This document shows, in pieces, positions 49,983 through 54,353 of a stretch of 64,000 bases of DNA. A program made the translations under genes and the position numbers. The stretch spans positions 62,001 to 126,000 of the forward strand of contig JAHCLO010000001.1 of assembly GCA_026125285.1 (NCBI GenBank), read 5' to 3'. Source of the DNA: Verrucomicrobiia bacterium. GTDB lineage: Bacteria > Verrucomicrobiota > Verrucomicrobiia > Limisphaerales > JADLHS01. The notes below the pieces were generated by a model, which was given only the letters and a program-made list of their open reading frames with translations, was not told the origin of the DNA and did not search any database. Numbering within the stretch: the first letter of the stretch is position 1; each line of letters begins with the position of its first letter.

Positions 49983-50123
49983 GGTTCAAGCGAAAGCACA
50001 AATGATCGGGGGTGAACTGGATTGCCTCCCCTGCCCTGTCTTCCGGCCTGCGCCTTGCCGTTTAATGTCGTCGCGGTGCAATCTGAGTTTGCGCCATGGT
50101 CCAGAATCAGCAAACAATTCGGC

Positions 50124-53100
50124 ATGGCACCAGGACGATCTCCAGGAATTCTCCTATTGGTCCCAATGGCAACCTGCCTGCTCCTGCCGCTGAATCCTGC
50201 GGCGGGGCAAAGCCGGCAACTTCAGATGTCGGATGAATACATGCCCCGCCAATACACCAAAGACCACGGCCTCCCGGATGACGAGGTGCGCAACATCCTG
50301 CAAACGCGGGACGGCTATCTCTGGATTGTCACCCAACAAGGATTGGCCCGCTTTGATGGCAAGCAGTTCGTCATTTTCGATCACGCGAACTCGCCGGAGA
50401 TCGACGAAGACAGCCTTCTGAATCTGGCCGAGGACCGGGCCGGGAATTTGTGGATTGGTGCCCGCGATTATTTTCTTCGCCGTGAGGGCAACTCGTTTCA
50501 CCGTTTACCCCGCCGGCTGGATCGCCGCGGCCACCACACGCCGCGCATCGTCCCGAGTCGCCATGGGGGAATCTGGGCCAGTTCGCACGGTGGCGTGGCT
50601 CACGTTACCGGGAGCAATATTGCTTTGTTGCCTACAGGGCAAGGATGGTCCCCTGCGGACACGATTTTCGCATTGCAGGAAGACCACGATGGCGTGCTGT
50701 GGGTGGGAACCCGGGCTGGACTTCATCGGTTCGATTCGGAGCAGCAGCGGTTTGAAAAGAGCCCGCCGGCCTCGCTGCCGCGCCGAGCACCGATTTCGGT
50801 GACGGCCCTCCACCGCGGCTCTGAGCAGGCACTCTGGGCAATCTTCGCGGAGCTTGACCCGCTCCTTGTGTTTAATTGCACGAACGCTTTGGTCGGCCGA
50901 CGAACCGGCGGCCAGTGGAACGCTGTTTCTCCGTCCAACGCGTTTAGCTTCGACCTTTCAGTTGCGGCTTCGTTTATCCTTCAGGACAGTCGGAGGGATG
51001 TCTGGTTATCGGCATCACTGCAAGTCATCCACCGTCTGCACCACGCGCAATTTGATGTGCTTGCGCTTCCTTTGCCTCACAGCGACGACCGGGTGCTTTC
51101 GCTCCACGAAGATCACGAGGGCAACTTATGGATGGGCACCGGCCGCAGCGGCCTGTGGCGCTGGCAACCGCGCAAACTTAAGACCTACACCACCCGGGAG
51201 GGCTTGCCCGATGAGAACGCCTGGGTGGTGTGCGAAGCACCCGATGGCGCCGTGTGGATGGGCACGGACGGCGGCGTTAGCCGCCTGCACGAAAATCGGC
51301 TGGAAACCTGGACCACTGAACACGGTCTCGCTCGTGACTACATTCGCGCCGTGGCCGTCGCGGCGGATGGCACCGTTTGGATTGGCACGAGCTCGGGCCT
51401 CAACTCCTGGCGCGATGGCCAATTGAAACACCACCCTTTTCCTGGCGAGTGGTTCGAAGGCAAAATTCGCGCCCTCCTGCCCGCGCGAGACGGCGCACTG
51501 TGGGTGGCGGCCGCCACGGGCTTGAATCTCTTACACGGCGAACAACGCACTCAGTTCACCATCACCAATGGCCTGGCCCACAATGATGTTCGGGCGTTGT
51601 TGGAAGACCGGGAGGGGCGGCTTTGGATCGGGACTTACGGCGCCGGGCTTCAGTCTTACTACGATGGGCAGTTCAAGACCTACAGCACCAATGACGGGCT
51701 TTCCAACAACTTCGTCTGGGCGCTTCACGAGGACGCCGAAGGCGCGCTCTGGGTCGGGACGGCATCCGGTTTGAACCGCCTGCGCGACGAACAATTCACC
51801 GTGTTCAACACGCACCACGAGCTGCCCGACAATCTGGTCAATTTCATTCTGGAGGACGATTTGGGCCAGCTTTGGATCAGTCACGACCGTGGCATTTATC
51901 GCGCGCGGCTGGCGGCGTTGAATGACGTGGCGGAGGGCCGGGCCACTCGTGTGCAGTGTGTCAGCTATACCACGGCGGACGGCCTGCCTAGTGACGAAAC
52001 CAATGGCCAGAAGAGCTATCCCGCCGGCTGCAAGACCCGCGATGGCCGGCTCTGGTTTCCCACCACCCGCGGCGTGGCGGTTTTCGATCCCAAACTCCAC
52101 CGTGAGGAACTCGCGCCGCCCAAGCCGGTTATCGAACAGATTCGCGCCACCGGTGAATTGGTTTACGATCTCAACCCGCGCGATCCCTTCGCCGCGAATC
52201 AGACGCGAACCCTGGAGCAACGCGCGGGAGTGTTCCAACTGCCCGCCGGCAGCGGGCGCGTGCTGGAGTTCGATTTCACCGCCAACACGTTCGTCAGCGC
52301 CGAAAAAAGCCGTTTCCGCTGTCGCCTCCTGGGCATGGGTGAGCGCTGGATTGATTTGGGTACGCGCCGCGAGGCGTTCTTCACGAACTTGAAGCCTGGC
52401 AATTACCGCTTCGAGGTCGTGGCCGCGAATCATCATGGCGTCTGGCAGGAAACGCCGGCTGTGTTCGCCTTTTATCTCGCCCCGTTTTTTCATGAAACGG
52501 TTTGGTTTCGCGGCGGCACGGTGGCCGTCCTCTTGCTCGGTGCTGCGGGCGTCTATGCGTGGCGCGTTCGCGAATTGCGCCGCATCCAGCGTCTGGAGCA
52601 ACAAGCGGCTTTGAATCGAGAGCGTGCCCGTATTGCCAAGGACCTGCACGACGGCCTGGGTGCCGACCTCACCCAGATCTCCCTGCTGGCGGATCTGGCG
52701 GAAGCGGAACACCCCGCCGCCGGCAGTCCGGAATCCCGCCTCCGCAACCTTTCCGCCGCCTCCAAACAAATGGCCCAGGCGCTCAAGGACATCATCTGGT
52801 CGGCCAATCCCGCCGACACCACGCTCGACGGCGTCGTGGCGCACATCTGCCAGTATGCGGAAACTTTTCTGAACGCGGCGCAGATCGCCTGTCGGTTCGA
52901 CGTGCCGGATGATCTTCCCTCACGCCCGCTGTCCGTGACTGAACGCCAGAACTTGTTCCTCGTGACCAAGGAGGCGTTGAGCAACGTCGCCCGCCACGCC
53001 CAAGCCACCGAGGTCTGGATTCGGGTTGCCATCCACGATGCCACGTTGGCGCTGGCGATTGAGAACAACGGGCGCGGTTTCGGAAACGCCGGCGTGAACG

Positions 53101-53222
53101 CGGACTCGACGGGCCGGGGTCTGCCCAACATGCGACAGCGCATGGCGGCGGTGGGCGGCGAACTGCGGGTCGAGCCATTGCCCGAGCGCGGCACAAGAGT
53201 TTCTCTCACGCTGCAGTTATGA
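50124..53222 (+). CDS. Sensor histidine kinase with Reg_prop propeller sensor (second copy)
   Basis: About 1032 residues, with the same architecture as the 37133-40204 kinase. The order is signal peptide ('ILLLVPMATCLLLPLNPAAG'), Reg_prop propeller blades ('DGYLWIVTQQGLARFDG', 'LQEDHDGVLWVGTRAGLHRF', 'LLEDREGRLWIGTYGAGLQSY'), Y_Y_Y domain ('VVAANHHGVWQETPAVF'), one membrane span ('VWFRGGTVAVLLLGAAGVYAW') and kinase core. The phosphorylated His is in 'ARIAKDLHDGLGADL'; the N box is 'FLVTKEALSNVARHA'. The G1 box reads 'IENNGRGF', with Asn where Asp normally contacts adenine. Start chosen to give the signal peptide; the frame is open 34 codons further upstream. Its probable partner is the regulator at 53709, beyond a 486-bp hairpin-filled gap. 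Confidence 0.92.
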   Translation: MAPGRSPGILLLVPMATCLLLPLNPAAGQSRQLQMSDEYMPRQYTKDHGLPDDEVRNILQTRDGYLWIVTQQGLARFDGKQFVIFDHANSPEIDEDSLLNLAEDRAGNLWIGARDYFLRREGNSFHRLPRRLDRRGHHTPRIVPSRHGGIWASSHGGVAHVTGSNIALLPTGQGWSPADTIFALQEDHDGVLWVGTRAGLHRFDSEQQRFEKSPPASLPRRAPISVTALHRGSEQALWAIFAELDPLLVFNCTNALVGRRTGGQWNAVSPSNAFSFDLSVAASFILQDSRRDVWLSASLQVIHRLHHAQFDVLALPLPHSDDRVLSLHEDHEGNLWMGTGRSGLWRWQPRKLKTYTTREGLPDENAWVVCEAPDGAVWMGTDGGVSRLHENRLETWTTEHGLARDYIRAVAVAADGTVWIGTSSGLNSWRDGQLKHHPFPGEWFEGKIRALLPARDGALWVAAATGLNLLHGEQRTQFTITNGLAHNDVRALLEDREGRLWIGTYGAGLQSYYDGQFKTYSTNDGLSNNFVWALHEDAEGALWVGTASGLNRLRDEQFTVFNTHHELPDNLVNFILEDDLGQLWISHDRGIYRARLAALNDVAEGRATRVQCVSYTTADGLPSDETNGQKSYPAGCKTRDGRLWFPTTRGVAVFDPKLHREELAPPKPVIEQIRATGELVYDLNPRDPFAANQTRTLEQRAGVFQLPAGSGRVLEFDFTANTFVSAEKSRFRCRLLGMGERWIDLGTRREAFFTNLKPGNYRFEVVAANHHGVWQETPAVFAFYLAPFFHETVWFRGGTVAVLLLGAAGVYAWRVRELRRIQRLEQQAALNRERARIAKDLHDGLGADLTQISLLADLAEAEHPAAGSPESRLRNLSAASKQMAQALKDIIWSANPADTTLDGVVAHICQYAETFLNAAQIACRFDVPDDLPSRPLSVTERQNLFLVTKEALSNVARHAQATEVWIRVAIHDATLALAIENNGRGFGNAGVNADSTGRGLPNMRQRMAAVGGELRVEPLPERGTRVSLTLQL

Positions 53223-53378
53223 CTCGCCTCACCTGTCGGCAACAAGGATTGGATGTTGGATGGGCTTTCTCAACGTTGATCGGGCTTAAGTGGATGCGCG
53301 AGTTTGCCACCCGGCACCCTTTCCCGGGGGCAGAATTCCCCGAACGCCGATTCGCGTATTGAACCCCGACTCCGCATC

Positions 53379-53489
53379 GTAGGGCAGGCTTTCCAGCCTG
53401 CCGGTTCACCGGACTTTCCAGTCCGGTGTTCCCTGGAAACGGGCGACTCGAAAGTCGCCCGCACCGGCGGACAAGAATGTCCGCCCTAC
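53379..53489. repeat. REP array, family D: GTAG, four tandem hairpins, CTAC
   Basis: GTAG is at 53379-53382 and CTAC at 53486-53489. In between are four perfect hairpins with arms at 53383-53390/53395-53402, 53408-53415/53420-53427, 53441-53460 and 53466-53473/53478-53485. The first two have the core CTTTCCAG with different stems; the third has the core CGAAAG. Confidence 0.88.
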
Positions 53490-53553
53490 ATGAGATTCGT
53501 GGTCAGCCTCCAGGATACTCGGATCGCGCATTGGAACCGTGAACCGCAAGGGC

Positions 53554-53605
53554 GTAACGCCGGTTTTCCAACCGGCGCACGCGCCGACTGGAAAGTCAGC
53601 GTTAC
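53554..53605. repeat. REP pair, family D: GTAAC...GTTAC
   Basis: Hairpin CGCCGGTT/AACCGGCG (53558-53565 with 53570-53577) and hairpin GCCGACT/AGTCAGC (53583-53589 with 53594-53600), bounded by GTAAC and GTTAC. The loops carry TTCC and GGAA. A leader-like CGCGCATTGGAACC lies at 53525-53538. Confidence 0.82.
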
Positions 53606-53708
53606 CGACAGGCGGATCATAAACACACTGACAGCCTCACCGAAACCGTCACTCGTGAGAATTTTTTGATTCTTCACCCACGCCGCATCTTGTAACCTCC
53701 GGCTCGCC

Positions 53709-54353
53709 ATGCCCATCAAAGTTTCCATCGTCGAGGACCAGCAGGCGACCCGCGACATGCTGGCAGCCCTGGCGCGCGGCTCTGAGGGTTTCATCTGCGA
53801 CGGTGCTTATGCCAACGCGGAAACCGCGCTGAAACGACTCCCGACGGAAAGACCCGATGTGGTCCTGCTGGATTTGGAACTGCCTTGCATGAGCGGTGTG
53901 GAATTCATCGCCGCCGCCACCGCCCGCCAACCGGGCCTGCGCATCCTGGTGCTCACCATTCACGACGATCCAGTAAGAATCTTCACCGCACTGGAGGCCG
54001 GCGCGAGCGGCTACCTCGTCAAACCCGTGGCTCCCGCGAAAATCCTCGAGGCCATCACCGAAATCCACAATGGCGGCGCACCCATGTCCAGCCAGATTGC
54101 CCGCTTGGTGGTCAAGACGTTCCATCACCGCGGCGAGGCGCGGAGCGAACTCGAGGTGCTGACCCCACGCGAAGACGAAATGCTGCGCCTTGTCGCTCAA
54201 GGCTTTCATTCCAGCGAGATCGCCGGGCGCTTGGGCATCAGTCCCCGCACCGTGGGCACGCACCTGCGCAACATCTACGAGAAACTCCACGTCCACACCC
54301 GTGCCCACGCCGTGGCCAAGTACCTGCGCCAACCGCCTCCGCCCGCCGTGTAA
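53709..54353 (+). CDS. NarL/FixJ-type response regulator (second copy)
   Basis: A 214-residue regulator. The receiver has acidic residues in 'VSIVEDQQATR', the phosphoacceptor in 'VVLLDLELPCMSG' near residue 55, Thr in 'LVLTIHDD' and Lys-Pro in 'GYLVKPVAP'. The LuxR helix-turn-helix is 'LTPREDEMLRLVAQGFHSSEI' (shortened), 'SPRTVGTHLRNIYEKLHVHTR'. Together with the upstream kinase it forms a two-component system paralogous to the pair at 36295-40204; both regulators share 'SGGSPM/NGGAPM', 'RAQAVAKY/RAHAVAKY' and the overall layout. ATG 53709 is the only good start. The next stretch, 54354-55239, is repeats without a gene. Confidence 0.94.
   Translation: MPIKVSIVEDQQATRDMLAALARGSEGFICDGAYANAETALKRLPTERPDVVLLDLELPCMSGVEFIAAATARQPGLRILVLTIHDDPVRIFTALEAGASGYLVKPVAPAKILEAITEIHNGGAPMSSQIARLVVKTFHHRGEARSELEVLTPREDEMLRLVAQGFHSSEIAGRLGISPRTVGTHLRNIYEKLHVHTRAHAVAKYLRQPPPPAV

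Follow-up and report, generated by a model that had tools for sequence, protein, structure and literature searches.

The window, a stretch of 64,000 nucleotides from a Verrucomicrobiia bacterium, contains a sensor histidine kinase gene of the Reg_prop/Y_Y_Y/HisKA_3/HATPase type (50022..53222, + strand, start codon uncertain) and a NarL/LuxR-type response regulator gene (53709..54353, + strand), and the 486 bp intergenic gap between them contains five perfect hairpins and one near-perfect hairpin. The preliminary description had placed at least six hairpins in 227 bp of sequence between these two genes, and both its count and its location are right, as five stems of 8-9 bp are perfect and the sixth pairs at 7 of 8 positions. 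However, the single uniform array that it proposed resolved into two elements with a spacer repeat, so that the hairpins of 53379-53605 belong to two units, A and B, rather than to six equal ones, with a degraded third repeat in between. Element A (53379..53489, + strand), which is supported by its genomic copies, covariation and fold, is a four-hairpin inverted dimer with GTAG...CTAC ends, that is, a composite REPIN-like unit. Its left half consists of an outer hairpin (53383..53402, + strand, GGCAGGCT-ttcc-AGCCTGCC) with a perfect 8 bp stem and an inner hairpin (53407..53428, + strand, CACCGGACT-ttcc-AGTCCGGTG) with a perfect 9 bp stem, and its right half of an inner hairpin (53440..53461, - strand, tip CTTTCGAG on that strand) with a perfect 9 bp stem and an outer hairpin (53466..53485, - strand, tip CATTCTTG on that strand) with a perfect 8 bp stem. 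Element B (53554..53605, + strand), which is recognised by its other loci and by the RAYT flanking seen elsewhere in the genome, is a two-hairpin inverted dimer with GTAACGC...GCGTTAC ends; its first hairpin (53558..53577, + strand, CGCCGGTT-ttcc-AACCGGCG) has a perfect 8 bp stem, and its second (53582..53601, - strand, CGCCGACT-ggaa-AGTCAGCG), which has the core GACTTTCCAGTC on the - strand, is the near-perfect one. The third repeat, whose ends read GGTTCATGG...CCATGAACC, is present at 53494..53545 in degraded form and with no strand assigned; the likeness of this copy was judged by eye against flanks such as those of L029.

Both A and B are inverted dimers in which the second half is inverted relative to the first, as is seen from the hairpin tips, which are pyrimidine-rich when the reading starts at the outer edge of the half that they belong to. 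Because of this inversion, ACTGGAAAGT and CTCGAAAG, which had been listed as separate cores, are really the same core on the opposite strand (CTTTCCAG and CTTTCGAG), and the list of hairpins, although correct in its number, had overlooked the one with the tip CAAGAATG (equal to CATTCTTG). No direct-repeat family was found in 53000-54000, in contrast to the regularly spaced direct repeats of a CRISPR array. Taken together with the genomic evidence below, the region 53379-53605, which separates the two genes of a two-component pair, is very probably a mosaic of two non-autonomous RAYT-type repeats.

Short hairpins of this design are frequent in the genome. In 830 kb of it, perfect 8-bp stems with 4-base loops occurred 140 times versus 17 times in Markov-shuffled sequence, an excess that is somewhat inflated because part of the 830 kb was picked for hits, and the loop was TTCC or GGAA in half of them (70 of the 140). 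Across the whole 7.16 Mb genome, the core GACTTTCCAGTC occurred 47 times versus once for a reversed control. A census using covariance models built from the A copies and the B copies placed element A at 19 loci and element B at about 40, so that the array is not unique in the genome. All within-genome A copies and nearly all A copies across genomes have a GTAG or GTGG tag, while the B tag is degenerate, mostly GTAA with GTAG and GTAT variants. Of the copies checked, which are not independent of each other, 15 of 18 for A and 22 of 28 for B fall, on a rough model of the ORFs, outside open reading frames of at least 300 codons, which cover 66% of the sequence. The third repeat (52-54 bp) has seven exact copies elsewhere (e.g., L192-L198) versus none for the reversed control, and many A copies adjoin it or stand between two copies of it.

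The position of the array between two co-directional genes and the stable fold predicted for it as RNA (z = -6.5) may suggest a cis-regulatory RNA of the kinase/regulator pair, such as an attenuator, a processing site or an mRNA-stability element, whose hairpins are selected as RNA, and RNA-element roles have been proposed for REPs elsewhere (PMC3733652). We consider this improbable as the main explanation, since A and B copies adjoin unrelated genes throughout the genome, the covariance model matches each copy on both strands, and no Rfam family reached its gathering score for the array, the best matches being far below. Furthermore, neither an intrinsic terminator (a hairpin with a T run after it) nor a promoter pattern was found on the + strand in 53100-53800, and several related kinase/regulator pairs overlap or stand a few bases apart without such an array. 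The unrelated neighbours, the missing terminator and promoter patterns and the overlapping or nearly touching related pairs thus do not indicate a dedicated role in this gene pair, although a secondary regulatory RNA effect could coexist with a REPIN-type origin of the repeats. An empty-site comparison for the locus yielded no close orthologue (best 52%).

The RAYT-type reading of the repeats draws on the genes beside them. RAYTs (REP-associated tyrosine transposases) were scored with the family model NF047646 at a cut-off of 80 bits. In this genome, a RAYT gene at L030:13712-14419 (94.6 bits) has B elements on both sides, and another B element lies in frame inside this gene (L030:14144-14214), between the N-terminal part and the HUH motif, where it adds residues to the protein. 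In related genomes, four-hairpin elements of the A type stand on both sides of the RAYT gene at L126 (5 and 7 bp away), at L117 (3 and 179 bp away) and at L220 (15 bp away on one side and about 280 bp on the other, measured there to the conserved gene core). The proteins of these three genes all score above the family cut-off; they are 64-66% identical among themselves and about 49% identical to the B-linked RAYT. An A half-element was found on 118 contigs, nearly all of which, among the 80 listed, are titled Verrucomicrobia or Limisphaerales. On these contigs, which were chosen for an A half-element, six of the seven RAYT-like genes adjoin one, and these six share 64-70% identity with the A-linked RAYTs. 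On one contig (L310, CANGMH010000075.1), a RAYT gene is surrounded by eight A half-elements in a stretch of about 3.5 kb. That RAYT genes are flanked by the same elements suggests that the constraint on fold and core comes from the copying enzyme.

No intact RAYT of the A lineage was found in this genome, in which the best candidate has 54% identity. The 190 bp between two A copies at L036:9893-10081 (G000:C52) contain a RAYT remnant of 26 residues, which is 73% identical to the L117 RAYT, and by the simplest reading of this sequence the A transposase appears to have decayed here. If so, element A would now be a fossil, or else another RAYT would move it in trans. In both A copies at L036, the inner hairpin pair is in reverse order. 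Both RAYTs that were examined in G028 are accompanied by other repeats, which leaves the A elements of that genome without an identified RAYT. Around another RAYT, in L226 of G028, the flanking repeats (1974-1999, 2654-2679 and 2768-2793) belong to a different REP family (GTAGGGACGACCC-gcc-GGGTCGTCCC), indicating that several REP systems coexist in Limisphaerales.

As single-stranded DNA, element A is predicted to fold into exactly four hairpins (z = -8.9), and its copies vary in agreement with this fold. Within the genome, 96.6% of cells are paired and 6 pairs changed on both sides, which 0 of 500 shuffles reached. In an alignment of 27 sequences from twelve Limisphaerales genomes, three of the sequences being from this genome, 96.3% of pair cells are paired and both sides changed in 25 of 41 pairs, which again no shuffle reached, pair cells being counts of sequences and not of independent events; the covariation score is 0.421 versus 0.04-0.09 for slid controls. 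A long fold-back, in which one half pairs with the other, was rejected as the conserved fold of A, as its pairing and covariation are much weaker (76.5% paired and a score of 0.201 across genomes, and 73.3% paired with no excess of double changes within the genome). Thus, what is conserved in A is the fold into separate hairpins, and where the two halves differ, the compensating change lies within the same hairpin. Element A is real, its structure is strongly conserved, and it is of the GTAG REP/REPIN kind. For element B, the covariation within the genome is weak, and the B copy in the window, as single-stranded DNA, is predicted to prefer one long hairpin. With copies dispersed over the genome and with the stem changes of A compensated both within the genome and across genomes, the proposal of the preliminary description that the folded form and the core are the target of selection or of the copying mechanism is supported.

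A similar covariation pattern could come from a mutational mechanism, namely templated correction between the arms of a hairpin (quasi-palindrome repair) instead of selection on a substrate. Hairpins with short loops lend themselves well to the correction of one arm from the other, and among the stem changes of A, swaps of G-C for C-G are numerous and one-sided intermediates are few. Selection and one-step templated repair of hairpin arms cannot be told apart by covariation alone. Nevertheless, such repair does not account for a loop and tag that are constant on one strand, for the copies throughout the genome or for the flanking of RAYT genes; as a full explanation we regard it as very unlikely, but it may contribute alongside the proposed copying of REPIN-type elements by RAYTs.

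The loops vary in a different way from the stems. When the reading starts at the outer edge of the half in question, almost all tips follow the pattern C-D-T-pyrimidines-D'-G, in which the closing pair covaries as T-A, A-T or G-C, and one loop type tends to predominate per genome, namely TTTCCA here, ATCCCT in G048 and GTCC in G013 and G036. Within a genome the loop is constant and the stems vary, whereas between genomes the loop changes and each hairpin position keeps a recognisable stem. The earlier notion of a constant loop core thus holds within a genome but not between genomes, where the core differs with a covarying closing pair, and the notion of unrelated stems is only half right, since each hairpin position has its own characteristic stem across genomes.

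Very probably, A and B are REPIN-type non-autonomous elements that would be copied by RAYTs recognising folded single-stranded DNA hairpins by tag and loop. Both are dispersed inverted-dimer repeats with an outer GTAG or GTAA tag. Element A shares with the GTAG REPs and REPINs the tagged palindrome, the dispersed and mainly extragenic copies, the inverted dimers and the RAYT association, and B shares the dispersed and mainly extragenic copies, the inverted dimers and the RAYT association. The points against this reading are that no intact A-lineage RAYT was found in this genome, the weak covariation of B within the genome, the fold-back predicted for the B copy in the window and the other repeats at the G028 RAYTs. 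We infer the mobility of A and B by RAYT from the named families and from the published biochemistry of TnpA-REP. By analogy with these, the RAYT would bind the element as folded single-stranded DNA, would use a single strand for reading the end tag and the pyrimidine loop, and would cut at the element ends and copy the element to new sites. Under such recognition, the stem sequence would be free while pairing, tag and loop would be constrained, and any effect on the mRNA of the kinase/regulator pair would be a by-product.

Integron attC sites, whose variable stems are kept by folding and which are recombined as single-stranded DNA by an integron integrase, are alike in principle, and the genome has an integron integrase gene (G000:C79:191340-192323, L350; 403 bits versus a cut-off of 265), but this explanation is extremely improbable, because the core sites GTTRRRY and RYYYAAC are absent from 53301-53700, and the copies are scattered over many contigs, form no cassette array and flank RAYT genes instead. 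Separately, three consecutive tyrosine-recombinase-like genes recur with the same scores on four contigs (G000:C17, C56, C60 and C75), and this trio is probably a four-copy mobile element.

Regarding their distribution, A-type elements occur in 19, B elements in 23 and the RAYT family in 48 of the 57 genomes of the order Limisphaerales. Outside the order, a phylum-wide search of 287 other genomes gave A matches in 9 of them, all weak and mostly partial (E-values of 5e-5 to 9e-4), so that the four-hairpin form looks order-restricted, although the search model was tuned to this genome and may miss distant forms. We tentatively speculate that Limisphaerales possess a distinct lineage of RAYT and composite REPIN with two same-loop hairpins per half, in which the four hairpins might act as one cooperative substrate, and in which the loop and its covarying closing pair might serve as a key that is particular to each genome and co-evolves with the RAYT lineage, the stems being free to drift.

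The comparison of A copies gives clear evidence that the fold which a REPIN-like element conserves is that of separate hairpins and not of one long hairpin, and one RAYT lineage is paired with one element architecture across genomes. Together, these make the part of a REP that is read by the transposase testable with natural loop and stem variants. The repeats also explain an annotation artefact in Verrucomicrobiota, in which they are translated inside or at the ends of predicted proteins. Among known systems, GTAG-tagged REP families with head-to-head dimers, some of them in Opitutus terrae (Verrucomicrobia), have been described (Di Nocera et al. 2013, PMC3733652), the sole relevant paper found on REPs or RAYTs in Verrucomicrobia. 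Like A, these REPs are short perfect palindromes with a GTAG or GTGG end tag that form inverted dimers with the tags outside, and, as in the repeats described here, they show complementary stem changes, heterodimers, a mostly extragenic location with occasional insertion inside genes, and RAYT association. In contrast, each half of A has a second, untagged hairpin with the same loop, which gives four hairpins, and its host belongs to another order of Verrucomicrobiota than O. terrae; A is set apart by description and not by consensus sequence, and may be the same as an O. terrae family. A CGTC REP family, which has been described with stem-loops at both ends of the dimer spacers, has a layout related to that of A. 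In Pseudomonas, REPINs are inverted REP doublets that, as here, behave as one unit, are dispersed and are linked to RAYTs, and two folds, a long hairpin and a clover, have been proposed for them (Bertels and Rainey 2011, PMC3116915); in A, covariation favours separate hairpins over the long hairpin, and there are four hairpins instead of two. No biochemistry of Limisphaerales RAYTs was found in the literature. Published TnpA-REP experiments agree with the recognition inferred above: for group 3 TnpA-REP of Stenotrophomonas and Marinomonas, the GTAG tag and loop bases are critical, whereas the stem sequence of TnpA-REP substrates is largely free if paired and the inverted strand is unused (PMC8266576); the group 3 substrates are, as here, short perfect palindromes, although they come from another phylum and have other loop sequences. 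The element is thus of a known REP/REPIN type, and its unusual feature is the four-hairpin architecture with a matched RAYT lineage.
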